A stretch of DNA of 64,000 nt from contig NC_019863.2 in the NCBI RefSeq assembly GCF_002234675.1, forward strand, positions 1,177,109 to 1,241,108. Reading direction: 5' to 3'. The stretch comes from Oryzias latipes. Lineage: Eukaryota; Chordata; Actinopteri; Beloniformes; Adrianichthyidae. This document shows positions 4,608 to 64,000 of this stretch, one piece after another; the first letter of the stretch is position 1, and every line of letters starts with the position of its first letter. The notes under the pieces are model-generated. The model had not been told where the DNA came from and did not search any database. It saw only the letters and a list, made by a program, of their open reading frames with translations. A program made the position numbers and the translations under genes.

Positions 4608-14854
<10,247 letters not shown>

Positions 14855-15564: not shown

Positions 15565-16213
15565 TATTCACCTGTAAGGGCAGATAAGGGTCACCTTTGC
15601 TCGTTCGCGCCTTACACTTTGGGTTGTTCCTCCAAAGACCCGAGCTGACAGTCAACTATGAGGCCAGAACACTGGAAACATTACTAAATAGGCTAATTTT
15701 TCTATTCCTCTACACTTTTTTCTGCTGTGTTGAAAGTCTTCTGACCACCTTGGTCACTTCATGGTTTTTTTGGTAATTGTACTGGGAAAGTACTTAGAGG
15801 ACCAACTCTTTACATTATTAGTACAATAAGTCTAATGAGGTTTATTAAATTACTTAGTTAACACATCTACAAGCATTATTATTATTAGGATCTTTTTAAG
15901 ATGCTAACGATACATTTATTGGCATTATAGATGCCTAACAAATGTCTCAGTGTTAATAAGCTTAATAAGATTTATTAACAACTTTTGTTAACAAATTAAG
16001 AAGTATTATTAATGTTTGGGTTTTTAGTAAGACATTTATTAGCATTATAGATGTCTCATAAGTGTTAATAAGCTTAAAAGTTTGATTAACTAACTTAACA
16101 AATTAATAGGCCTTATTAATGTGTAAGATGCTAGTAAGATATTTATTAGCATTATAGATGTCTTGCAAATACCTGAAAGTGTTAATAAGATTTATTAACA
16201 TCTAAAGTCAGAC
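15565..16213 (+). repeat. Left arm of the 5.7-kb inverted repeat
   Basis: 649 bp, paired with 20588-21236. See the parent entry for structure. Confidence 0.93.
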
Positions 16214-16984
16214 CATGGTCTTCAAAATCCATATTACTAAACTGCTTATAAGCTTAACAAATGTATTAATTAACTTTGTTAACAGTTTATTAATTGTTTT
16301 GCAGCACCTCATCTAAAGTGAGGAAGGTTTTTACCACAAACAACCACAAAGCATAAAGCTTGTAAAAAGAGCTTTATAACATTAAACAGACTAAGCGTAC
16401 AAAAATCTTTCTGTAAAATAAATACAATTACAATAAATAATTTCAGACAAATTAAAAAAAAAACACAGGGACCGGTGTTGAATGACTAGCATCATAGCTA
16501 ATTAGGATAAAGTATTAGCAAACTATCCTGAGTGAAACATTCATTGAAATCCCATCACTAACAGACAGTTCTCTGGATTCAATGCCAACTGCATTCAACC
16601 ACTGTTGCATTGCTTCCAAGTCCACTGGAAAGTTGCACAAGCCAGTAATTTTTGAAGGCTATGGGCGGGGCTTTTTGTCACCTAGGTGAAAGCTTAGAGA
16701 AAGTCTAAGAGGCCATGCAATTGGCTGAAAGCGAGTACGCCTGTTTTGCTGAGGAGTTTGATTGACAGACTCAATTGTGATCTTAGTTGACCTGCCCATA
16801 TTTGATTCTGTACCGGTCGGACGTTAGCGTGTTAGCTTTAGCATGGCTCCTGTAGGTTTATTCAATGATTTATTTCGCTAGAGGAGACACGCCCCTTGGG
16901 AAGCCTATCCAATGGTGGCGGAGCGCGACGCCATCTTTGGGAGTTCGTTGGCGCCAACATGACAATGATTTCCATGGCCTTTAG
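16214..16984. other. Spacer left of the nested element
   Basis: AT-rich first half, then a GC-richer part around 16650-16970. No coding sequence is recognised. It joins logically to 19108 onwards if the nested element is removed. Confidence 0.5.
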
Positions 16985-19099
16985 TATGGAGTCCTGTACT
17001 GTTCATAATTAAATAAATAAATATTTAATTAAATAAATAAATATGACCTCATGCAAATACACAATCAACCAATAAATCTCTCATAAATATATAAAAAGAT
17101 CATGAAATTGTGAAAAACCTGCACAGCGATTTTATATAAGCCATTATATTATTCAATATGTTTCATTTTGCTTTAAAAACCTGTTCATTATTTTAAAACA
17201 GTATTTTAAAATATTCATTTTATTCATGTGGAATATTATTATAATTCTACGTCTTTTTTCAGAACCTTGGATTTCAAAATCAATATTTACCAAAGTAGCT
17301 TCGTTTTTATTTCATGTTGCTGTTTTTCACAATGACTGATTTATTTCATGAAGAGATTTTTCAGGAGAATGGGTCTGTCTGTCAATCAAACTAGACGAGT
17401 CGGAGACACTTTTGTGATTGGCTACTTCTTTACTCAGACATGAGCAGCAGCACCCTGACTACATCGATCGAAGATGCTTCAGCAAACGTGACGGCGCGAT
17501 GCTCACTCCTCAACACTAGGGGGAGTATGCACCTCAACACATCCACGTTGTTACACGAAATTGGGCAGTTTTGGTTTTAAATTTGAGGATAAAAGTGGCT
17601 TTGGGCAAGTGTGCATAATTCAGGCGATTTTGTTGTCAGTTCGGCGGTTTTCATCTTCTCATTAACATCTAGTAGTGGCCTAAGTTAGGATGAGTGGTTG
17701 TTGGAGTTCCACAAAACTTCTATGAACTGGAGTTCCATGAACGCAACAGGCCGCGTGTGGGAGGAGCTACCAGCTAATATTTTAGCCTGATAGCCACATG
17801 GAGCCATTGCTTGTGCTTATCTCATAAACAATGCATGAATGCACAATGCACAGGGAGTGTTAAAAGATCAGGTTTATTTATTTTGAATAGTTCCACATGA
17901 TAAAAATGTTTCCATGTTTGAGTTCATATGATCATCCCAGAGAGTCTCTGCTTCAGGTCCTGCAGTCAAACTACGTCTTAAATTGCGTGTAAAGAGCGCC
18001 CAGGCAGCGCAAGAGTGTGTGTGTGAGCGCAAGTTAAGGGTCTGTTGCTCAGTTCCCTGGAAAAGTAATAGTAAAAAAAGGTTTCCTCCAAGTGTAGAGA
18101 CTGGTTCTTTTAACCCGCTCTGGAAGCGTCTGAACGGGGAAAGTGAAACCCAAATCAAACCCCGGATCTCCGCTGCGTTTTCCGACCACAGTCAGAAACG
18201 TCATCGCAGGAAAGGTTCAACATTTTCCCCGAGAAGGGAAAATAAAACCAGAGGACCTGGTTATAATCATTGTCTCATTGAAAATAGAAAAATATCATAA
18301 GGTTCAGGAGGCCCGAGCAGGCTTGTTCCGTTTTGCGCAGCTGCCTGGTCTGAGTCTGTTGGTCCTGCCAGCTGACAAGGCACGATGTGAGCTCTGAGAG
18401 AATGGCGTGAGAATGAGGAGTGTTTCAACGGGGGACTTCTAGACGTGGACGACCGGAGCTCCTCAGTGGTTTGGTTCACACAAACCCTCAAACTACAAAA
18501 ACAGAGTTGTCCATGTTTGCATCTTCTGCAGCAGACAGATTGTCTCTATTTGATCTCTAATGTCAGCAAAGCCTCGCGGATATCGCTGAAATATGTCATC
18601 TCTCTGACTGGAACACCGCTGAGCGGGTATCGAGGAATATGAGTCGATTTCCATGGATGAGCCAATGAGCGTTTAGATCCCGCCCACTTTCACTGATTGA
18701 CAGATAGAGTCATTCTCCTGAAAAAGCTCTTCATGAAATAAATCAGTCATTGTGAAAAACAGCAACATGAAATATAAACAAAGCTACTTTGGAAAATATT
18801 GATTTTGAACTACAAGCTTCTGAAAAAAGAAGACAGAATTATAATAATATTCAACATGATTAAAAATGAATATTTTAAAATGCTGTTTTAAAATAATGAA
18901 CAGGTTTTTAAAGCAAAATGAAATATATTGAATAATATAATGGCTTATATAAAATCAGTATGCAGGTTTTTCACAATTTCATGATCTTTTCAAATATTTA
19001 TGAGAGATTTATTGGTTGATTGTGAATTTGCATGAGGTCATATTTATTTATTTAATTAAATATTTATTTATTTAATTATGAACAGTGTAGGACTCCATA
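16985..19099. mobile_element. Nested fold-back element, about 411-bp inverted ends, 7-8-bp target duplication
   Basis: The left arm (about 16985-17395, beginning TATGGAGTCCTGTACTGTTC) and right arm (about 18690-19099, ending GGACTCCATA) are inverted copies with scattered differences and small indels, so it is older than the outer structure. It is flanked by CCTTTAGT at 16978-16985 and 19100-19107, a 7-8-bp direct duplication overlapping the terminus. The 1.3-kb interior has no transposase. It is a non-autonomous DNA element; an 8-bp duplication would point to hAT or a similar superfamily. Confidence 0.75.
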
Positions 19100-19500
19100 C
19101 CTTTAGTGGCATCTAAGTAGCTTTTATATGATTCATATACATTCATATTTCTTTATATTTATACATATATATAAATATATAATATATACATATATTATAT
19201 TATACATACATGCATCATTTGTTGCTGTTAAATAAGAGAAACAGTAAGCCTTAAAAGCTCAAACTTTAATGAAAAATGCATTGTTGACGGACTTCTTATT
19301 ATTTAAAAAATTATTACAAAGAATTTTTAAAGATGATTTCTAAACATTTAGAAGTTTTAGACCTCTTTGATATTTAATTTAAATTATTTAGATAAGCCCA
19401 ACAATAAGTAAATAGTAAGTCAATAATGATAATAATGAATCAATAAAAAATAATAATAATAAAAAATCAATAGTCAATAAAAATAATAAATAATAACAAC

Positions 19501-19838
19501 ATATACATAAGTCAATGTGGAAACACATTTGGAAACACACAACGGCTCATGTTGCCTGTGTTAGCGACAAAGTCAGAGAAGCCAGACTGAGATGGTTTGG
19601 ACATGTTCAGAGGAGGGATAGTGGATATATTGGTAGAAGGATGTTGGAGATGGAGCTGCCTGGCAGGAGGGCAAGAGGACGGCCAAAGAGGAGATACATG
19701 GATGTCTTAACAGAGGACATGAAGTTGGCTAACGTTAGGGTAGAAGATGTCCATGATAGAGTGAGGTGGAAAACGATGATTCGCTGTGGCGACCCCTGAT
19801 GGGAAAAGCCAAAAGAGAAAGAATATACATAAGTCAAT
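19501..19838 (+). mobile_element. 5'-truncated LINE 3' end with 16-bp target duplication
   Basis: The 16-bp ATATACATAAGTCAAT occurs at 19501-19516 and again at 19823-19838. Between them lie 306 bp with an uninterrupted frame (19515-19799) ending in the LINE C-terminal domain LRWFGHVQRRDSGYIGRRML, ARGRPKRRYMDVLTEDM and RWKTMIRCGDP. These motifs, from memory, are of the RTE-like type found in fish. A long exact duplication and intact frame indicate a recent insertion. Confidence 0.85.
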
Positions 19839-20587
19839 AATAATAATAAATCAAAAATAAGTCCAAAAGTTAACAACAGATTTACCCTTAAAAAAAAAAG
19901 AAAAACAATAGATTTACTGATTCATGTGAGTGATCAATTTGTGTAACACAGATGTTCTGGTGTCTGGTTTCAAGCAAACAGTCTGGCCTCTCATCAAAAT
20001 GTGTTTCCACAAAATATTTTGAACATAGCCAGACTGTATTACTAGTTGGTACCACAGTGATCCATCTGGGTTAGCTCTTTTGATAGCTAAGGCCCACTTT
20101 TTCCTTAAGTCTGAATTCATTGGAAACCTGCAAGAAAAGTTCAGTCACTGAGTCAGAAATGTTTAAATCTATATTACTATAATAGCCTAGTCCTAGTATG
20201 CTGTATATAGGTTTAACACAATAAAATATACATTTATGTCGACAGCAAATTCTCCGTACATCATGCAGCATGTTGATAACAGCCCTGCAGCATCATACTT
20301 GTCAACATGTGTTCTATTAATGAAGCCCCTGCAGCATTAAAAGAAAAAATTATAGTACTTACCTGTGAAATGTTATGCCTTCCTCCTTCATGGATTAATT
20401 TATCTTATTTTGTCAGTTGAAACCCGCACAATGAGCTGGAATTTTGGAAAAAATGTGTTCACATGCATTCACTGCAGTAGTGACTTGACCTCACCAAGAT
20501 GGCGGTGCTCTCCTCCCATGAGGAACCACGTGACGTCTCCTCTAGTGATATAACTCATTTTGTTTATTGCCTTCGGTCATCTAAGTC
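19839..20587. other. Spacer right of the nested element
   Basis: AT-rich, with A-rich microsatellite-like patches. No gene is recognised. Confidence 0.5.
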
Positions 20588-21236
20588 ATCTGACTTTAGA
20601 TGTTAATAAATGTTATTAACACTTTCAGGTATTTGCAAGACATCTATAATGCTAATAAATATCTTACTAGCATCTGACACATTAATAAAGCCTATTAATT
20701 TGTTAAGTTAGTTAATCAAACTTTTAAGCTTATTAACACTTATGAGACATCTATAATGCTAATAAATGTCTTACTAAAAACCCAAACATTAATAATACTT
20801 CTTAATTTGTTAACAAAAGTTGTTAATAAATCTTATTAAGCTTATTAACACTGAGACATTTGTTAGGCATCTATAATGCCAATAAATGTATCGTTAGCAT
20901 CTTAAAAAGATCCTAATAATAATAATGCTTGTAGATGTGTTAACTAAGTAATTTAATAAACCTCATTAGATTTATTGTACTAATAATGTAAAGAGTTGGT
21001 CCTCTAAGTACTTTCCCAGTACAATTACCAAAAAAACCATGAAGTGACCAAGGTGGTTAGAAGACTTTCAACACAGCAGAAAAAAGTGTAGAGGAATAGA
21101 AAAATTAGCCTATTTAGTAATGTTTCCAGTGTTCTGGCCTCATAGTTGACTGTCAGCTCGGGTCTTTGGAGGAACAACCCAAAGTGTAAGGCGCGAACGA
21201 GCAAAGGTGACCCTTATCTGCCCTTACAGGTGAATA
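20588..21236 (-). repeat. Right arm of the 5.7-kb inverted repeat
   Basis: 649 bp, reverse complement of 15565-16213, with substitutions near AAATCTAATG, GGCTTTATT and GTGTCAGATG on the complementary reading. Confidence 0.93.
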
Positions 21237-30000: not shown

Positions 30001-33000
30001 CGCTCCCCCAGGGGATGGGTCAAATGCGGAGAAGAATTTCCCCATTGAGGGATGAATACAGTATAAATTTATTTATTCTTTATTTAGCTGTCAGTTGTTT
30101 CCACTCTGATGTTTTGCTTGCAGGCTCTCAGTACCTGTTGTCCTTCGTCTGGGGTCAGACCAGCTGCAGAACTTCATTCTCCTCGTCTTAGTGTCTTTCT
30201 GCACACTGGTTTCTCTGCGTTACCCGAAGCTAACAATAGACCGGCACCCGCCAGTTTACCTTCCAACCCGGTGTTACATGGCTTAGCTAAATATTTGGTG
30301 CTGTTATGCAATCAAAATTTGTGTGGCTTTTTTGTTTGCGTTGTTTTTTTATTTGCAGCAGTGTTTCTTTTTACTTGTAGCATTTCTTTTATTTTCAGTT
30401 TTTTTATCTTTGCACAGTTCCTTTTTTTTTTTTTCGCTGTGTGGCAAGTGAAGATGATGTAGAGGAGAGGGTTAGATGGGGGTGGGGGGTATTTGCTGTG
30501 GAGCCACCTAAAAGAAGGCCGCCAAAAGGTAAATGGCGTTTACATGTAGCGCTTTACCTTCAGAGAAGGCCAAGAGCGCTTTGCAGCCACAGCCAACCTA
30601 TAACCATCAGGAGCAAAGTTCAGTTCAGTGTCTGAGGAAAGAAGATCGTTTATAGAGTGCAGTTTTGTGCCAACATTTCAATGATTCTAGAAAACAGCTC
30701 CTATCTCTTGTACTACCTGACAATGAACAGCTTCTTACAGCATTCTTAAACTACATTTAGATATTGTCACCAAACAAATCTCTCTAACGGGAAATCATGT
30801 GCCTCTTCTGTGATGTGAACAGGTGTTTTGCCACTGTGGAGGACATGAGTCTATTCACAGGTTTACACAGATTACAGTGGAATTCAGAAACCACTCCTCA
30901 CACTAACTTTGTGAACTCAGTTATTCAAACAACTTTAAAAACAGCTGGAAGGCTCTGTGAACATTGGGATGTAGAAGAAGACATTATTTCATTAAATGTG
31001 GAAATATATAAACAATATGTCAGACATAGCAGAAACATTTGTATTTTAAATGGCTAATTTTTCATTCAAAAGATGTTTCTTTTCTTTTCTTTTTTTGTAT
31101 GATTCAGAAAAACTAGTAAGTTTTTCCTCCTCATCTGCCTGTCCTTCTGGCCATGTGACCTCCGATTCCTCCAATGCCCATCAGCGTTGGACAACCTCCT
31201 CCAGGGTCCAGCAGGTTCCACCAAGTCTGCAAAGTCTGACCGAGATTCCAGTGCAGGACTTTGAGGGGCATCAAGCCAAGCTGAGGTTGGAAGAAAGCTC
31301 AGTGAGTGTTGCCTCATTTGTCGCTCAGCTTCTTTCTTTGTAGTTCAGGAGAAGACATGAAGAGCAGCAGCACCTGTGGTCATGACCATCTGTATCTGTG
31401 TTTTTCAGTATGGAGGGATCCTGCTGGTTGACAACATTAACAACAAGGTGCAGACTGCCGTTCACATTGACCCTAAAGGTTTCAAAACTGGTCCTTGACT
31501 GAAAACTACAAACACCAGCACTGCTGATCTTCAAAGTCCCATTCTGATCATCTTTTGATCTATTTTCAGAGTGTTCCTGGTGGTCTTTTAATGATGATGA
31601 TACAGTTTTTAGCAAAAACCCAAAAATCTGTGTCGTTTTCTGGGACATAGTTTCTGCAGAGCAGCAGGAGTTCATGAAAAAGTCACCTCTGAGTTGTGGG
31701 CGGGACTGTGGGGGCAGAAGTAAGCCTCTGCTTCTTTCCCATCATCCCTTTGTTTACACTCTCTTAGGCTAATATACAGCCCCTCACTCAAGTAGATGCA
31801 TCAGAATGGAGCAGAGGAGGGAGACCCAATCCCCAGCTAAATGAGTCTGGAAGGATGATTGTGGAAGTGAAATGTTTTGCACTGTTTGTGTGTTTTCTAC
31901 TTAAAAACTGAGAGCTTTTCAATTTGCATTTTTCCTCTGCTCCTGATGCACCTCAATTTGAATAAAGCAATACTAGGTAACACAGTTTGAAGTTGATTTT
32001 TTTATATGTTCTCTAGCATGGTAGCGCAGAGAAAGTGAGAAAGTCCTTGTTCAAATCCCGGTTGAAACCGTTCAGTGTGGAGTTTGCATTCGTAGGCACT
32101 CCAGCCTAAAGGACCCAGGTGTGCCTAAAACCGCTACTAGTGCGTGCCCACCCGTTATCGCATTGGTGCGCCCCACTATTTGAGAAGCACTGCTCTAAAG
32201 CAAAGATGTCCAACTCTAGGTCTCCAGGCCAACCTCCTGCTGGTTTTCCAGAAATCTACTGCTGATTGCCTGGATGGATCAGGTGTGTTTAGCTACTGAG
32301 TAGTTTTAATGGCAGGTTGGTTGGAGAACATGTTGGACACGGCTCTTGAGGCCTGGATTCTGACCACCCTGCTCTAAAGTGTCCCTAGGTATGTGTGTGG
32401 GAGTGATGGTATTCGTTACATGACCGTGAAGTCAGCCACGTACTGAGAAGATTCTTCAAGATACAGTGGAGCATTGGTTAGTGCTCTTGCCTCAGAGCAA
32501 GAAGACTCCAGTTCAAGTCCCCACTGGAGGATCTGAAACAAACAACCAACAGGGCTTTCTGAGTGGAGTTTGCATGTTCTCCCCGTGAACAAGTGGGTTT
32601 TCTCTGGTGGACTCCTGGCTTCCTCCCCCATCCAGAAAAACATTCTTCATAGGTTAACCCCATGGTTCTAACTTTTTCTCTTGTTCCCCCCTTTGGTGGA
32701 GGAAAACATGTTCACCCCCCCATCGCGAAAAAACTGTGACAAAATAAGCCAAATATGTTCAACTTTACTACCATATCAAAATCTCAAACATTCTTGCTGC
32801 TAGAGACTAGAAAAAAATACTTTTTAACAACCATAACTAAAACAAAAAGTTGTGTTAATGGCTGCAATGTGTCTGCTTTGGGCTGCACATCTTGTAACCC
32901 TTGTCCTATCCTAGGCCCTTTGACATTGGGAGTGGGGTCATCTAGACCCACTAGACAGTGCTCTGAACCTTTTTTCTTCAATGATTTGTGATCTTCACTG

Positions 33001-34563
33001 GTGTCCATGGATTACATGAAATCTTTCCACCTTTATCCACCTTTGTCATGGTAGGGAGAACACGTCAATGGAAGGGGGGGGGGGGGTCATCTAAGATAGC
33101 ACAAGGGTTAAAAACGAGGTTGCAGGTTTGTTACTGCAACTCTCAAGTCATGCTCAATACTGAGCCAAGATCTGTTCTTTGTTTTCAAAGTGGCAACAGC
33201 AGAAAAGCCTATCTCACAAACATGGGATGTAGCGAATGGAAGCAGAATGCCCACAGCCTTCTGCCCAATGAGTGGATGCTCCCTCTCCACACCCGGCCAG
33301 AATTCAGTGATTGTCTGTGCTGGAAAGTTCATCCTCAGGGTGGAGTCTGATTGGTCAGACTGATGACATGTGATTGAGCCTTCAAGAATGATTGGTGGAG
33401 ACAGTTAAAGGGGCGGGACTTGTTGAATGTTTGAGATTTTGATATGGTAGTAAAGTTGAACATATTTGGCTTATTTTGTCACAGTTTTTTCGCGATGGGG
33501 GGGTGAACATGTTTTCCTCCACCAAAGGGGGGAACAAGAGAAAAAGTTAGAACCATGGGGTTAACCTATGAAGAATGTTTTTCTGGATGGGGGAGGAAGC
33601 CAGGAGTCCACCAGAGAAAACCCACTTGTTCACGGGGAGAACATGCAAACTCCACTCAGAAAGCCCTGTTGGTTGTTTGTTTCAGATCCTCCAGTGGGGA
33701 CTTGAACTGGAGTCTTCTTGCTCTGAGGCGAGAGCACTAACCAATGCTCCACTGTATCTTGAAGAATCTTCTCAGTACGTGGCTGACTTCACGGTCATGT
33801 AACGAATACCATCACTCCCACACACATACCTAGGGACACTTTAGAGCAGGGTGGTCAGAATCCAGGCCTCAAGAGCCGTGTCCAACATGATCTTCACTGG
33901 TGTCCATGGATTACATGAAATCTTTCCACCTTTATCCACCTTTGTCATGGTAGGGAGAACACGTCAATGGAAGGGGGGGTCATCTAAGATAGCCCAAGGG
34001 ATAATTGGTCACTCTAAATTGTCCCTAGATGTGAACGTGGGCACACATGGGTGTGTGATTCTGACCCTGTGACAGACGGGCGACCTGTCCAGGACGTCCC
34101 CCGCCTTTGCCTACGAGTGGCCGGGTTAAGCCAAAAGGGACATTATGGGTTTTAGATAATGACTGAATATATTCATGGTTTTGAGTTAATCAAGTAATGT
34201 ATTAAAAATATGCTAATTCAGTAAAACAAAAATATTTTTAAAAGTTATTGATTCAATATAATGTATATTATGCAATCAGTTTCTTCATAAATCTTGAGTT
34301 CACTGAACCCATTCAGGTTTACAGTATTCAAAAACATGTTCAAACACTGTTTGCATTACAGTGGGTCTTTAAGAACATAGCTGAAGTCCATTCTTCCAAT
34401 GCGTTGCTACCTTAGGCTAATTACCGTTGTGTGACTTTGTCCCCTGACATGTTTGTGCTGCTGCATCTGTTTCCAGGTCATTGAGTCCACAAGAGTTGTT
34501 CGACAAAAAAACCGGCAAGCTCTGCGTTGGGAGGCTGGCGTGTTCACCAACAAGGAGAAGTAA
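25251..34563 (+). CDS. MISP/AKAP2 C-terminal-domain family protein (4 coding exons)
   Basis: Exons 25251-27000, 31108-31301, 31409-31447 and 34477-34563 join in phase (1, 0, 0) to 2070 bp, 689 residues plus stop. MISP and AKAP2 relatives bind actin or anchor signalling proteins at the cortex. Family marks are [19 protein letters not shown] with the following [13 protein letters not shown] (about 115-150), a [11 protein letters not shown] segment (about 245), a charged helix [19 protein letters not shown] (about 530-550), and the C-terminal [20 protein letters not shown], which parallels the ends of MISP and AKAP2. The rest is Ser/Glu-rich and probably disordered. The start ATG lies 112 nt after an acceptor (TTTCAG ending at 25138), so an upstream non-coding exon is likely. 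Which paralogue it is cannot be settled here. Confidence 0.85.
27001..27559. other. MISP-like gene intron 1, first part, unassigned
   Basis: No element or RNA is recognised. Confidence 0.4.
27560..28000 (-). mobile_element. Tc1/mariner-type transposase relic
   Basis: On the minus strand, pieces in different frames read [20 protein letters not shown] and NLWS, the catalytic region of Tc1/mariner (DDE) transposases. Flanking similarity is weak and several frameshifts are present. No terminal repeats are found. Confidence 0.6.
28001..28433. other. GC-rich unassigned block, then AT-rich sequence
   Basis: Positions 28010-28235 are clearly richer in GC than the surroundings and may be a foreign fragment. 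No protein family is recognisable in any frame. Confidence 0.35.
28434..29175. mobile_element. Candidate solo LTR, 742 bp, with 5-bp target duplication ACAAG
   Basis: The segment starts TGTTACGG and ends GCGTAACA, so it has TG...CA ends and a short inverted repeat (TGTTACG/CGTAACA). It is flanked on both sides by ACAAG (28429-28433 and 29176-29180). Size, ends and 5-bp duplication together define a solo LTR left after recombination of an LTR retroelement. It encodes nothing and its family is unknown. Confidence 0.8.
29181..29838. other. MISP-like gene intron 1, unassigned
   Basis: A-rich intronic sequence, with no gene or element boundary recognised. Confidence 0.45.
29839..30075 (+). mobile_element. 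tRNA-derived SINE
   Basis: It contains an A-box-like TGGCTCGGTTGG (29847-29858) and a perfect B-box GGTTCGATTCC (29891-29901). The fish SINE body follows: TCCTTAGGCAAGGCCCTTAA, CCGCTCCCCCAGGGGATGGG, then GAAGAATTTCCCCATTGAGG. The tail is ATGAATACAGTATAAATTTA. Confidence 0.85.
30076..31107. other. MISP-like gene intron 1, end, unassigned
   Basis: T-rich tract at 30420-30435; otherwise nothing recognised up to the exon 2 acceptor at 31107. Confidence 0.45.
31409..31447 (+). CDS. 39-bp microexon of the MISP-like gene
   Basis: Thirteen codons ([13 protein letters not shown]) between a TTTTTCAG acceptor and a weak AAG/GTGCAG donor. Together with exon 4 it reads as the YxGI...VDxxN segment followed by the [10 protein letters not shown] motif, as at the end of MISP. 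It is too short to show as an open frame. The weak donor suggests it could be skipped in some transcripts; being 39 bp it keeps the frame. Confidence 0.8.
31448..32328. other. MISP-like gene intron 3, first part
   Basis: No gene. From about 32190 a repeat with the phrase GATGTCCAACTCTAGGTCTCC begins and reaches about 32380 (CACCCTGCTCTAAAG). It appears to be a short DNA element, because CTGCTCTAAAG occurs at both sides (about 32193 and 32369). Confidence 0.45.
32893..33111. mobile_element. MITE of the CCCTTGTGC family in the spacer
   Basis: It starts CCCTTGTCCTATCCTAGG and ends ATAGCACAAGGG followed by TTAA. Internal landmarks match the copy at 23943-24149 in reverse orientation. A run of G at 33075-33088 is a likely length-variable site. 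Confidence 0.8.
33108..33332 (-). pseudogene. hAT transposase C-terminal remnant (ZBED/SCAND3-like)
   Basis: On the minus strand, 74 codons read [20 protein letters not shown] then [20 protein letters not shown] and [11 protein letters not shown]. This is the C-terminal dimerisation region (the CExxFSxL block) of hAT transposases, best known from the ZBED5/SCAND3/FAM200 group. It lies between two inverted copies of a hAT-like end (CATGGTTCTAAC), so the spacer plus inner arms derive from a hAT element. The catalytic part is missing. Confidence 0.7.
33890..34009 (+). mobile_element. Half copy of the CCCTTGTGC-family MITE at the duplication junction
   Basis: It is a direct repeat of 32991-33110 (GATCTTCACTGGTGTCCATG onward) and begins exactly where the right arm ends. 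It runs to CCCAAGGG followed by ATAATTGG, where the SINE tail starts. The shared bases TGATC-like at the junction suggest a microhomology switch. Confidence 0.85.
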
Positions 34564-35630: not shown

Positions 35631-35636
35631 CTGATG

Positions 35637-36225
35637 AGGTGCAGGTGTGTGATCAGGAGGAGGTGCAGGTGTGTGATCAGGAGGAGGGACAGGTGTGTGA
35701 TCAGGAGGAGGGGCAGGTGTGTGATCAGGAGGAGGGGCAGGTGTGTGATCAGGAGGAGGGGCAGGTGTGTGATCAGGAGGATGAGCAGGTGTGTGATCAG
35801 GAGGAGGTGCAGGTGTGTGATCAGGAGGAGGGACAGGTGTGTGATCAGGAGGAGGTGCAGGTGTGTGATCAGGAGGATGAGCAGGTGTGTGATCAGGAGG
35901 AGGTGCAGGTGTGTGATCAGGAGGAGGGGCAGGTGTGTGATCAGGAGGAGGTGCAGGTGTGTGATCAGGAGGAGGGGCAGGTGTGTGATCAGGAGGAGGG
36001 ACAGGTGTGTGATCAGGAGGAGGTGCAGGTGTGTGATCAGGAGGAGGTGCAGGTGTGTGATCAGGAGGAGGTGCAGGTGTGTGATCAGGAGGAGGTGCAG
36101 GTGTGTGATCAGGAGGAGGTGCAGGTGTGTGATCAGGAGGAGGTGCAGGTGTGTGATCAGGAGGAGGGACAGGTGTGTGATCAGGAGGAAGTGCATGTGT
36201 TTGATCAGGAGGAGGTGCAGGTGCG
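35637..36225. repeat. 24-bp minisatellite, about 24 copies
   Basis: The unit GTGTGTGATCAGGAGGAGG plus five variable bases repeats without length change for nearly 590 bp. Variants (GTGCAG, GGGCAG, GGACAG, GATGAGCAG) are shuffled along the array. Because 24 is a multiple of three, all frames stay open and give spurious 236-255-codon ORFs on both strands. Confidence 0.97.
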
Positions 36226-57822: not shown

Positions 57823-58765
57823 TGGTCCAACTCTGTTCTAATTTTTTCACCTCATATGATGCAGTTTGAAACACCCTTCAAAGTTATTATGCAAATTTCA
57901 CAAAGATACAATTATTTGTTTTTCAATTAAACTAATGGATGATATTGTTTCTCGGGTCTCTTTGGATTATAACATAAATCTCAGAAACCTGTGAATATCC
58001 GTTTGCCATGTGAATTCAATTAAAGAAAAAACTATAGAAGGATGTTCAACATTAAATAGCAGACAAACATTTTCAAGCAATATGGAGATAAAATGAATCT
58101 CTTCTGCTGAAAAGTGTGAAATAGTTAAAAGCTTTGGATAAAATTTAACTTAAAGTTAAAGTCCCATTATTTATCACACACCTACACAACCTAACCCCAA
58201 CCATAATCCTAACCGGAGCCCATCCTCTGGGTCCGTGCAGCCAAGAAAAAAGTTAAGGGCTGGCTGCAGGCCTTTTGAAAATGATGTGCGAATAGACACT
58301 TTCACAAAAACGTAAAAATTATTATTGTACTATGAAGAAATTTGTGGCTGATTCGGAGCACCCACAGGTTGGTGCAGATAAAGGCAGAATTAGGAAGGGT
58401 TCTGTGTTACTGCCCCGACAGGCAAACCTGTCCCAAACATGTTGGTTTTGCAGGGCTTTGTCCCCAGCTAAATCATTTGTTTTCCTGAGACATCCAGCAT
58501 CTACTCCACAAACCTCAGGCTTAAGCGCATATGCATGTGCGCATATGCACACGCGGCGCCATGGTGTGGCAGCTTATCTGGGCAGCTCTACCTTTTTGTG
58601 TTCCTTACTTTGCGTTTTTTAATATTTTCTTCCAACTTATTTGTTTTTTTTTTTGTATTTTTCAACAACTATTACAAAGTTCTGCGACAAAGGACAGGAA
58701 CATCATTACTTTTGCTTTTTGTTTTTTTATTTTTTGTCAACTTTTTGAACCGGCCTCGGGGGATC
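57823..58765. other. Unassigned sequence upstream of the LINE coding region
   Basis: AT-rich to about 58330, then T-rich. The latter may be LINE 5' UTR or the end of a first ORF, but no domain is visible. Confidence 0.4.
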
Positions 58766-59182
58766 CGTTAGGATGCAGCTCCATTGTTTACACTCGAGAT
58801 CAGCTGTTAGCTCTTGGACGAGTTGAGATTCTCCTCGCTGGAAAGCCAGATGTTCCAGCTGAAATACGGAGGAAACGACGAGGCTGCAGAGCTGAAGTTA
58901 AACGCCGGGAGAGAAGACGGAGGTACAATCCATGTTTACCATCCGTTACTATGGGAAACGTCCGCGCACTCTCTAACAAGCTGGACGAGCTAACAGCGCT
59001 CATCATGCGTCTGCAGCGGGTGTACCGTGAGAGCAGCCTGCTGTGTTTCACCGAGACGTGGCTCCACCAGGACATGACAAACTCCGTGGTCTCAGTTAAC
59101 GGATTCACGCTGGTGCGGGCGGACCGGAGCGCGGCGCAGAGCGGAAAGAAGAAAGGCGGTGGTCTGGCGGTGTTCGTGAATG

Positions 59183-59492
59183 ACTGGTGTCAAGCCAGCC
59201 CCCTCTCGTTGAACGGCTGTCAAGTGAGCCCTCTCTCAAATACGGTGTGCCGCTTTTTTACATACATTGCGGTAAAAGCAAGAATGCCTTCATTCGGGTA
59301 AAAGCAAAGTGTAAGAACTGTCATTATACTCATTTACTATTTACACATACGCCCCCCTCCCCCGTATATAACTATATATTTATATGTGTATATTTAATTA
59401 TATGTTTCAGGTGAATTATCAATTAAAGACCAAATTAAAATCATATACTGAAGAGGATTTACTATAATGTTCACTTATGTTTAGAGAAAAAA
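59183..59492 (+). repeat. Left terminal inverted repeat of the palindromic element
   Basis: About 310 bp. Includes GCGGTAAAAGCAAGAATGCC and an AT-rich part (TATATAACTATATATTTAT). Paired with 62596-62903. Confidence 0.93.
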
Positions 59493-61098
59493 CTGCTAGT
59501 TTCCACTGAGTCATTTCACTTCTCACTGATAGTAACCCACCTGGTGATGTCACAAAATAAGTTTCAGAGGGATCTGATGTGGAATTTCAAAGTAAAACCC
59601 AATTGAAATCTGGTATGCACGCGTTATCACCATATGTTGACAGAGCTGTAAAATGAAAACTGCTAGTTTCCACAGAGTCATTTCACTTCTCACTTATAGT
59701 ATCCCAGCTGGTGATGTCACAAAATAAGTTTCAAATGGATCTGATGTGGAATTTCAAAATAAAACCCAATTGAAATCTGGTATGCACGCGTTATCACCAT
59801 ATGTTGACAGAGCTGTAAAATGAAAACTGCTAGTTTCCACAGAGTCATTTCACTTCTCACTTATAGTATCCCAGCTGGTGATGTCACAAAATAAGTTTCA
59901 AATGGATCTGATGTGGAATTTCAAAATAAAACCCAATTGAAATCTGGTATGCACGCGTTATCACCATATGTTGACAGAGCTGTAAAATGAAAACTGCTAG
60001 TTTCCACAGAGTCATTTCACTTCTCACTTATAGTATCCCACCTGGTGATGTCACAAAATAAGTTTCAAATGGATCTGATGTGGAATTTCAAAATAAAACC
60101 CAATTGAAATCTGGTATGCACGCGTTATCACCATATGTTGACAGAGATGTGAAATGAAAACTCCTAGTTTCCACAGAGTCATTTCACTTCTCACTGATAG
60201 TATCCCACCTGGTGATGTCACAAAATAAGTTTCAGAGGGATCTGATGTGGAATTTCAAAATAAAACCCAATTGAAATCTGTTATAACAGTGTTATTGTCA
60301 TATGTTGACAATGGTGTAAAATGAAAACTGCTAGTTTCCACAGTCATTTCACTTCTCACTGATAATATCCCACCTGGTGATATCACAAAATAAGTTTTAG
60401 ATGGATCTGATGTGGAATTTCAAAATAAAACCCAATTGAAATCTGTTATTACAGCGTTATTGTCATATGTTGACAATGGTGTAAAATGAAAACTCCTAGT
60501 TTCCACAGAGTCATTTCACTTTTTACTTATAATATCCCACCTGGTGATGTCACAAAATAAGTTTTAGATGGATCTGATGTGGAATTTCAAAATAAAAGCC
60601 ATTAGAAATCTGGTATAAATGCGTTATCGCCATATGTTGACAGAGCTGTGTAATGAAAACTGCTAGTTTCCACAGAGTCATTTCACTTCTCACTGATAAT
60701 ATCCCACCTGGTGATATCACAAAATAAGTTTTAGATGGATCTGATGTGGAATTTCAAAATAAATCCCATTAGAAATCTGTAATAAATACGTTATCGCCAT
60801 ATGTTGACAGAGCTGTAAAATTAAAACTGCTAGTTTCCACAAAGTCATTTTAGTTCTCACTGATAGTATCCCACCTGGTGATGTCACAAAATAAGTTTCA
60901 GATGGATCTGATGTGGAATTTCAAAATAAAACCCATTAGAAATCAGGCATAAATGTGTTATCGCCATATGTTGACAGAGCTGTAAAATTAAAACTGCTAG
61001 TTTCCACAGAGGCATTTCACTTCTCACTTATAATATCCCACCTGGTGAGGTCACAAAATAAGTTTCACATAGATCTGATGTGGAATTACTAAAACCCA
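59493..61098 (+). repeat. 167-bp satellite-like array, forward half
   Basis: The landmark CTGCTAGTTTCCACAGAGTC recurs at 59493, 59660, 59827, 59994, 60161, 60328, 60493, 60660, 60827 and 60994. Spacing is 167 bp except one 165-bp interval, where GA is deleted from CAGAGTC. The last copy is partial. Each monomer also has GGTGATGTCACAAAATAAG and GATCTGATGTGGAATTTC. Confidence 0.97.
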
Positions 61099-61109
61099 GC
61101 TTTTTACAA

Positions 61110-62605
61110 CTTTATCACCTTATGACAATAACACATGTATACCAGAATTTAATGAGTTTTATTTTGAAATTCCACATCAGATCCCTCTGAAACTTATTTT
61201 GTGACATCACCAGGTGGGATACTATAAGTGAGAAGTGAAATGACTCTGTGGAAACTAGCAGTTTTCATTTTATAGCTCTGTCAACATATGGTGATAACAC
61301 GTGCACACCAGATTTCAATTGGGTTTTATTTTGAAATTCCACATCAGATCCATTTGAAACTTATTTGGTGACATCACCAGGTGGGATATTATAAGTGAGA
61401 AGTGAAATGACTCTGTGGAAACTAGCAGTTTTCATTTTACAGCTCTGTCAACATATGGTGATAACGCGTGCATACCAGATTTAAATTGGGTTTTATTTTG
61501 AAATTCCACATCAGATCCATTTGAAACTTATTTTGTGACATCACCAGGTGGGATACTATAAGTGAGAAGTGAAATGACTCTGTGGAAACTAGCAGTTTTC
61601 ATTTTACACCATTGTCAACATATGACAATAACGCTGTAATAACAGATTTCAATTGGGTTTTATTTTGAAATTCCACATCAGATCCATCTAAAACTTATTT
61701 TGTGATATCACCAGGTGGGATATTATCAGTGAGAAGTGAAATGACTCTGTGGAAACTAGCAGTTTTCATTACACAGCTCTGTCAACATATGGCAATAACG
61801 TATTTATTACAGATTTCTAATGGGATTTATTTTGAAATTCCACATCAGATCCATCTAAAACTTATTTTGTGACATCACCAGGTGGGATATTATCAGTGAG
61901 AAGTGAAATGACTGTGGAAACTAGCAGTTTTAATTTTACAGCTCTGTCAACATATGGCGATAACGTATTTATAACAGATTTCTAATGGGTTTTATTTTGA
62001 AATTCCACATCAGATCCCTCTGAAACTTATTTTGTGACATCACCAGGTGGGATACTATCAGTGAGAAGTGAAATGACTCTGTGGAAACTATGAGTTTTCA
62101 TTGTACAGCTCTGTCAACATATGGTGATAACGCGTTCATACCAGATTTCAATTGGGTTTTACTTTGAAATTCCACATCAGATCCATTTGAAACTTATTTT
62201 GTGACATTAACAGGTGGGATATTATAAGTGAGAAGTGAAATGACTCTGTGGAAACTAGCAGTTTTCATTTAACACCATTGTCAACATATGGCAATAACGC
62301 ATTTATAACTGATTAGAATTGGATTTTATTTTGAAATTCCACATCAGATCCATTTGAAACTTATTTTAGAACATCACCAGGTGGGATACTATCAGTGAGA
62401 AGTGAAATGACTCTGTGGAAACTAGCAGTTTTCATTTCACAGCTCCGTCAACATATGACAATAACGCTGTATTAACAGATTTCAATTGGGTTTTATTTTG
62501 AAATTCCACATAAGATCCCTCTGAAACTTATTTTGTGACATCACCAGGTGGGATATTATAAGTGAGAAGTGAAATGACTCTGTGGAAACTAGGAGATTTT
62601 CCTAA
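61110..62605 (-). repeat. 167-bp satellite-like array, reverse half
   Basis: The reverse-complement landmark (ending CTAGCAG) falls at 61261, 61428, 61595, 61762, 61927, 62094, 62261, 62428 and 62595, again 167 bp apart with one 165-bp interval. The shortened monomer is offset by one unit relative to its mirror position in the forward half. Confidence 0.97.
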
Positions 62606-62903
62606 AAATAAGTGAACTTTATAGTAAATCCTCTTCAGTATATGATTTTAATTTGGTCTTTAATTGATAATTCACCTGAAACATATAATTAAATATACAC
62701 ATATAAATATATAGTTATATACGGGGGAGGGGGGCGTATGTGTAAATAGTAAATGAGTATAATGACAGTTCTTACACTTTGCTTTTACCCGAATGAAGGC
62801 ATTCTTGCTTTTACCGCAATGTATGTAAAGAAGCGGCACACCGTATTTGAGAGAGGGCTCACTTGACAGCCGTTCGACGAGAGGGGGCTGGCTTGACACC
62901 AGT
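62596..62903 (-). repeat. Right terminal inverted repeat of the palindromic element
   Basis: Reverse complement of the left terminus with differences such as CTCGTCGAACGG versus CTCGTTGAACGG and CTTCTTTACA versus CTTTTTTACA. Confidence 0.93.
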
Positions 62904-64000
62904 CGTGAATGACAGGTGGTGTAACCCGAACCACATCACTGTGAAAGAACAGCACTGCAGCAAGGACATTGAACTGGTGGCAGTCAGCGTTCGGCCGTAC
63001 TACCTTCCACGGGAGTTCTCCCATGTGCTGGTGGTGACTGTTTACATCCCTCCGTCGGCTGACGCTGCTGTCGCTTGTGAGCGCGTGCACAGCACCGTGT
63101 CCCAGCTGCAGACACAACACCCACAGGCCCTGATCCTGATTTCTGGGGACTTTAACCATGCATGCACCCCCCTCTCCGCCACCCTGTCCAACTTCACCCA
63201 GTATGTGAACTGTCATACGAGGGACAGAAAAACTCTGGACCTTTTCTATGCTAACATCAAGAATGCATATGCTTCTGCCCCCCTCCCCCCTTTAGGACGC
63301 TCTGATCACAACCTGGTCCATCTTTTCTGCGTACACTCCAGTGGTGAAACAGCAGAAACCACAGATTAAAACGGTGAAGATCTGGACTGAGGAGGTAACA
63401 GAGCGACTAAGGGACTGTTTTAACACCACAGACTGGGACGTTCTCTGCAGTCCACACGGGGAGGACATTGACAGTCTCACTAACTGCACCACGGACTATG
63501 TCAATGTTTGTGTGGAAAACACAGTGCAAACAAAATCAGTGCAGTGTTTTTCCAACAACAAGCCCTGGGTCACTCCTGAGCTGAAGACCCTCCTAAATGA
63601 GAAGAAGAGGGCTTTTCTCTCTGGGGACAAGGAGCTACGCAGAGTACAGAAGGACCTGAAATACAACATCAGGAAGTGCAAAGACGCTACAGGAAGAAGC
63701 TGGAGCAGCGCCTGGAACAGAACAACATCCGTGATGTGTGGAGAGGTCTGAAACACATCTCAGGACATGCTGAGGCTGGAAATGGTCCCAGGTCACAGGT
63801 GACCAAGCCTGGGCAAATGAACTGAACCTGTTCTTTAACCGATTTGATTCTGCCCAGCCCCCAGTCTCCACCCACACGGCCCCTCTTCACACCTTTCCAG
63901 CTCAGGCGTCTCCTCCCAGCTGCAGCTGTTACCACCTCGGCACCAAACAGTCCACTCTCCCCTTCTTCCAACAGAAGCAAAGGGACCCCCCCAACGACTC

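Follow-up and report, generated by a model that had tools for sequence, protein, structure and literature searches.

Recent insertion of a putative non-autonomous foldback transposon carrying opposed satellite arrays in Oryzias latipes

Closest described systems

Target-site duplications of 8 bp are made by hAT and P elements, and Zisupton elements occur in fish. Zisupton has been described with 8-bp duplications and inverted repeats as well (PMC12730594). The described system closest in plan to the family reported here is Tetris, a foldback transposon of Drosophila virilis with tandem repeats of ~220 bp within its inverted ends and duplications of 8-10 bp; in the published description, one arm of the copy shown has 3 or 4 repeats, and three of the copies are structurally complete (Dias et al. 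2014, PMC4079207). Galileo, a Drosophila element of the P superfamily, has long inverted ends, internal tandem repeats that grow and shrink in number, and chimeric and recombinant ends; its account includes copies with transposase segments and from none to three repeats (PMC3573991). In oysters, satellite-like arrays are spread by the mobile units called Cg_HINE, which are non-autonomous Helentrons with tandem arrays of mostly 140-180-bp monomers (PMC7492417). Finally, Dada elements are described without terminal inverted repeats, with duplications of 6-7 bp and with small RNA genes as targets (Kojima and Jurka 2013, PMC3706591).

The family that we found in the teleost Oryzias latipes can be likened to Tetris by structure. 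As in the published description of Tetris, its copies are non-autonomous, each arm has an outer flanking domain with tandem repeats on its inner side, which gives opposed arrays, the middle is variable, repeat number differs between copies, and the duplications (8 bp against 8-10 bp) are of similar length (PMC4079207). The long inverted ends, variable tandem repeats in each arm, 8-bp duplication and, in the copy studied here, non-coding content are all present. It differs from Tetris in its 167-bp monomer, with dozens per arm at most, in its 28 end pairs and in its size range of 0.75-27 kb. It resembles Galileo in the three traits named above, whereas arrays dominate its copies and no transposase of its own was found. 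With Cg_HINE it has in common the spreading of satellite-like arrays of similar monomer length; unlike Helentrons and HINE, it has inverted ends and 8-bp duplications. Cg_HINE and Helentrons have other ends and another mechanism, and to our knowledge Helentrons lack inverted ends and staggered-cut duplications. Inverted ends and 8-bp duplications also set the family apart from Dada, as, it appears, do its targets: the duplications differ from copy to copy, and the copy studied here lies in a LINE frame. The foldback plan is thus already known from Tetris, and what is new is the size range, the copy number, the common junction, the youth and the vertebrate host. Searches of the open-access literature for such a family led to Tetris, Galileo and HINE, and among the titles listed we saw no fish family of this build.

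The window copy and its insertion site

The window is the whole stretch of 64,000 nucleotides that was analysed (C5:1177109-1241108 of the source assembly), and it contains one copy of the family (Table 1). A preliminary description of this DNA had proposed a coding-free unit with inverted ends of about 310 bp that differ at a few bases, an interior of two opposed arrays of a 167-bp monomer, and an exact 8-bp duplication produced by insertion into a LINE endonuclease frame. Each of these points was borne out. The inverted ends span 308 nt at 98% complementarity and run on into the opposed arrays, and 296 of their 300 terminal bases are identical. The arrays, with the copy numbers measured in Table 1, are 91% complementary across 1438 nt, with a spacer of 68 nt. 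No open frame of at least 120 aa lies wholly within the element; four enter it from the flanks. The palindrome CATATG, considered as the point where the arrays join, proved wrong, the actual junction being AAACCCAGCTTTTTACA. The longest words common to end and monomer have 8 letters, the same as in shuffled sequences, and no common motif exceeds chance, so there is no sign that the arrays bind a transposase.

Table 1. Parts of the window copy and its host frame (positions in the window).
Feature	Position	Strand	Remarks
Whole element	59183-62903		3.7 kb; palindromic, inserted in fish (Oryzias latipes) DNA
Left 8-bp target-site duplication	59175..59182	.	CGTGAATG
Left terminal inverted repeat	59183..59489 (arm alignment 59182-59489)	+	starts ACTGGTGTCAAGCC; 98% to the right one; same end genome-wide
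Left array	59489..61087	+	167-bp monomer, 9.6 copies, 93% matches
Inversion junction	61092..61108	+	AAACCCAGCTTTTTACA; meeting point of the two arrays; once in each of 12 copies
Right array	61102..62601	-	167-bp monomer, 9.0 copies, 89% matches; opposed
Right terminal inverted repeat	62597..62903 (arm alignment 62597-62904)	-	finishes GGCTTGACACCAGT
Right 8-bp target-site duplication	62904..62911	.	CGTGAATG
Disrupted LINE frame (endonuclease region)	58525..63369	+	hosts the element; open across the empty site

The flanks of this copy alone fit symmetric duplications of 6, 8 or 10 bp, because flank and end have bases in common. The other insertions fix the length at 8 bp, with ends ACTGGTGTCAAG..CTTGACACCAGT, and it is these copies that settle the duplication, CGTGAATG, seen on both sides here. 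When the element and one duplication are deleted in silico, an open LINE frame results (..GGGLAVFVNDRWCNPNHITVKEQHC..). The 3' part of this frame has a weak match to the endonuclease family PF14529 (E 3.8e-5, 24 bits, below the model cut-off of 27.4), and its 5' part had no match in the same family search. There were no Rfam matches at gathering score within the window.

Other repeats are present in the window. A 5.7-kb unit (15565-21236) is enclosed in 648-bp inverted repeats that are 99.2% identical (15565-16212 and 20589-21236) and holds a second inverted pair (16984-17388 and 18694-19100, 93.6%); its arm ends show no plain duplication. Positions 32325-33893 hold a pair of 469-bp inverted repeats, 99.6% identical and ~0.6 kb apart, whose arm ends lack a clear flanking duplication. 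A 24-bp tandem repeat (35636-36223; 24.5 copies, 94%) has several open frames, and a remnant of a Tc-type transposase (PF01498) lies at 9143-9733.

Copies across the genome

We searched the source assembly (734 Mb, 25 contigs) with the ends of the element. The 318-bp end has at least 40 matches (all 40 that were scored among 91 candidates, counting the window's own two). Its 19-bp terminus occurs at 76 places, 60 exact and 16 with one mismatch, against 0 for a reversed-pattern control; with up to three mismatches, the numbers are 221 and 34. We read pairs from the 95 places with at most two mismatches, all of which fall within the first 100 of the 221, and obtained 28 pairs of facing ends on 18 contigs. 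The conservation of the terminus is partly selected by the search, because copies were found by it. The units are 0.75-21 kb long, or up to 27 kb if a gapped copy is counted, and the long pairs (8.9, 10.2, 15.6, 17.2, 21.0 and 27.2 kb) are joined by terminus position alone.

Copies with one end also exist (L017, L018, L024 and L030). Among 10 single ends that we retrieved, 4 belong to a third subfamily with the monomer and 2 have 74-77 bp in common with the family. Two further single ends match over 24 bp and one over 25 bp at 92%, and these three may represent either remnants or unrelated families that happen to have this terminus. In the remaining one, at C18:3299079 (L059 1-47), 40 bp of one end are directly followed by CACCAGT; this 47-bp stretch is probably a deletion copy or remnant that has lost nearly the whole inside.

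We looked for duplications at every pair but C21:3727252, 27 in all. They are exact in 19 pairs, and match at 7/8 positions in 4, at 6/8 in 2, at 5/8 in 1 (L015) and at 0/8 in 1 (L022); we count the last two as lacking a duplication. Among 380 mispairings of the first 20 copies, used as a control, none reaches 7/8 and 4 reach 6/8. The recurrence of the ends together with the duplications excludes a chance origin. All six long pairs (8.9-27 kb) have exact duplications; the weakest is the 27.2-kb pair, which has a 1-kb run of N inside and whose duplication, TGTGTGTG, proves less because it sits in a TG repeat. Of the 17 copies with at least 7/8 matches in the first check set, 13 have a duplication ending in C, which suggests a mild target preference.

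Most copies have the anatomy of the one in the window: 17 of 20 pairs read end to end consist of end, array, opposed array and end. The other three are two units of 749 bp with monomer remnants on both strands and one broken by an LTR retrotransposon. For five of the six long pairs we read ~9 kb on the right and found array in all five (in L020, a single array orientation in this part; in L021 and L028, a Dada piece amid the array); the C10 pair is represented by its ends only. The copies form at least three subfamilies. The first, the window's type, includes a group with one full end and another end that matches over ~108 bp only. The second has ends ~74% identical to the window's type and, in six copies, a unique centre of ~0.86 kb; these centres are 99.4-99.8% identical across ~960 bp, array edges counted. 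The third is known from the four single ends mentioned above, at 85-89% to the second.

The junction AAACCCAGCTTTTTACA was found exactly once in 12 copies of the window's subfamily, after scanning 32 sequences; several of the 20 that lack it are of other subfamilies or have their centre outside the sequence. Since twelve copies have one inversion junction, the head-on structure is most simply explained by a single origin within this subfamily, with later copying through transposition. Around the common junction, the arrays vary many-fold in length, which implies that they grow and shrink. Relative to the ends, the junction is flipped in two (L023 and L027) of the five copies in which both unlike ends were read, as exchange between opposed arrays would do. 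We compared 668 monomers and found a mean identity of 0.91 within the window's element and 0.86 to other elements. The nearest relative of 10 of the 17 window monomers lies in the opposite array, which suggests local homogenisation in this element. Such homogenisation is not general, because most monomers of 17 of the 25 elements are nearest to a monomer in another element; this pattern could reflect recently copied elements or little homogenisation. About 2.3 kb past the family copy, L023 also contains ~3.5 kb of strongly biased simple repeat with several open frames (5353-8928).

These results agree with the earlier expectation of many insertions with common ends and 8-bp duplications. The recurrent ends, the duplications and the near-identical copies all point, as far as sequence can tell, to a young mobile family. 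The preliminary description thus stands as regards a mobile, young and non-coding unit with common ends, opposed arrays and an 8-bp duplication. Two of its parts fare differently: no autonomous copy with the same ends and a transposase was found, and its remark of knowing no named family with this layout has to be revised, since Tetris is described with the same plan (PMC4079207).

Explanations for the family and the Dada fragment

We consider it very probable that the window copy was inserted recently and belongs to a non-autonomous family of foldback DNA transposons in this teleost, moved in trans. The mobile unit would consist of an inverted end of ~300 bp, an array of the ~167-bp monomer, an inversion centre, the opposed array and the other inverted end. 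A DDE-type transposase supplied in trans would recognise the ends, excise the unit and reinsert it with an 8-bp stagger, by cut-and-paste. The arrays may become longer or shorter between jumps through internal unequal exchange, gene conversion or slippage, and exchange between opposed arrays may flip the centre. The same two ends would thus carry very different amounts of satellite, and a centre that at times holds foreign DNA, as with the Dada piece in three copies. On duplication length, hAT, P and Zisupton are possible superfamilies, 8 bp being the length expected of hAT and Zisupton; they are not told apart here because no autonomous copy with a transposase was found. The family ends begin ACTGG, which is not known as a usual hAT start.

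Satellite arrays might also have spread by recombination or as circular DNA, the ends being array flanks carried along. The satellite is indeed the bulk of most copies, and the one-ended copies would fit, since duplications count against this origin for two-ended copies only. Yet the ends are sharp and identical, 19 of 27 pairs have exact 8-bp duplications, and the LINE frame is open across the empty site, which makes such spread very unlikely. A fold-back or inverted misassembly might be suspected where long inverted arrays are hard to assemble and one copy contains a run of N. This is hardly credible, because the two arms are 2% divergent in the ends and 9% divergent in the arrays and the 28 end pairs span 18 contigs; flanks, lengths and duplications vary from one occurrence of the structure to the next. 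Rolling-circle elements of the Helentron type, like the oyster HINE, are described with arrays of monomers in the same size class (PMC7492417), but the inverted ends on both sides and the 8-bp duplications make an origin of this kind extremely improbable for the fish family.

An engine of the Dada type is another alternative, on the grounds that three copies (L021, L028 and C4:2329500) have a Dada C-terminal exon in their centre. P0096 is an O. latipes protein of 1343 aa with DUF6729, and its C-terminal part has 74-78% identity to the fragment. Motifs of relatives agree with the published account of Dada: a D-D spacing of 68, DxxH, and CCCC and CCHC fingers whose spacing is identical or almost so. 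A Dada-type protein was modelled by AlphaFold with moderate confidence, and the RNase H-like core of this model most resembles the ISCth4 transposase. Moreover, L028 matches 575 bp at 81% in a stretch beside a Dada-type gene on C20. Against this, the outer ~280 bp of the C20 flank have no match in that comparison, and a search with the exon, in which all 48 candidates were scored, matched only 3 of the 28 pairs. The family has inverted ends, 8-bp duplications and varied targets, and we judge mobilisation by a Dada-type transposase very unlikely. Because Dada is described without inverted ends, with shorter duplications and with RNA-gene targets (PMC3706591), the fragment is probably a captured passenger and not the engine. 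The centres of L021 and L028 have ~1.1 kb in common at 97%, in opposite orientation. We saw no case of ACTGGTGTCAAG ends with 8-bp duplications that enclose an intact Dada gene. Proximity of family ends to Dada genes was also considered, and none of the 95 places with at most two mismatches is near the C20 Dada-type genes.

If the favoured reading of a foldback family moved in trans is correct, the family would carry whole satellite blocks to new places in the genome. A broader idea is that it is a vertebrate transposon with open-ended cargo, in which the transposase needs the ends alone and arrays of any length move as single pieces; we regard this as possible, if rather doubtful. Each jump would then install a complete palindrome of satellite DNA, its monomer close to nucleosome length, and a mobile element could in this way give rise directly to a new satellite, to heterochromatin or to an inversion breakpoint. 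How satellite DNA moves between chromosome places is an old question. Here the putative moving unit can be seen together with the traces of its insertion, since 8-bp duplications flank units with opposed arrays that measure from 0.75 to more than 20 kb, and near-identical young copies make satellite movement testable. A vertebrate also seems to have the foldback layout known from flies, in a far larger form.

The C20 locus has features of its own. It has three Dada-type genes within 46 kb, 93-100% identical to P0096 over most exons. Beside one of them (L041 301-345; C20:4277600-4278800) is a stretch that we take, by eye, to resemble the first half of tRNA-Ala; GCGCAA follows it, and ARAGORN detected no intact tRNA there. 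GCGCAA is the site reported for the Dada-tA_OL element of medaka (PMC3706591). We found no mention of DUF6729 (PF20499; P0063, P0096 and relatives) in the open-access literature. The domain seems to form the N-terminal region of Dada transposases, and the best 120 of its 543 matches come from fishes, amphioxus, a hemichordate, an echinoderm, a mollusc, a shrimp and a priapulid, among others.
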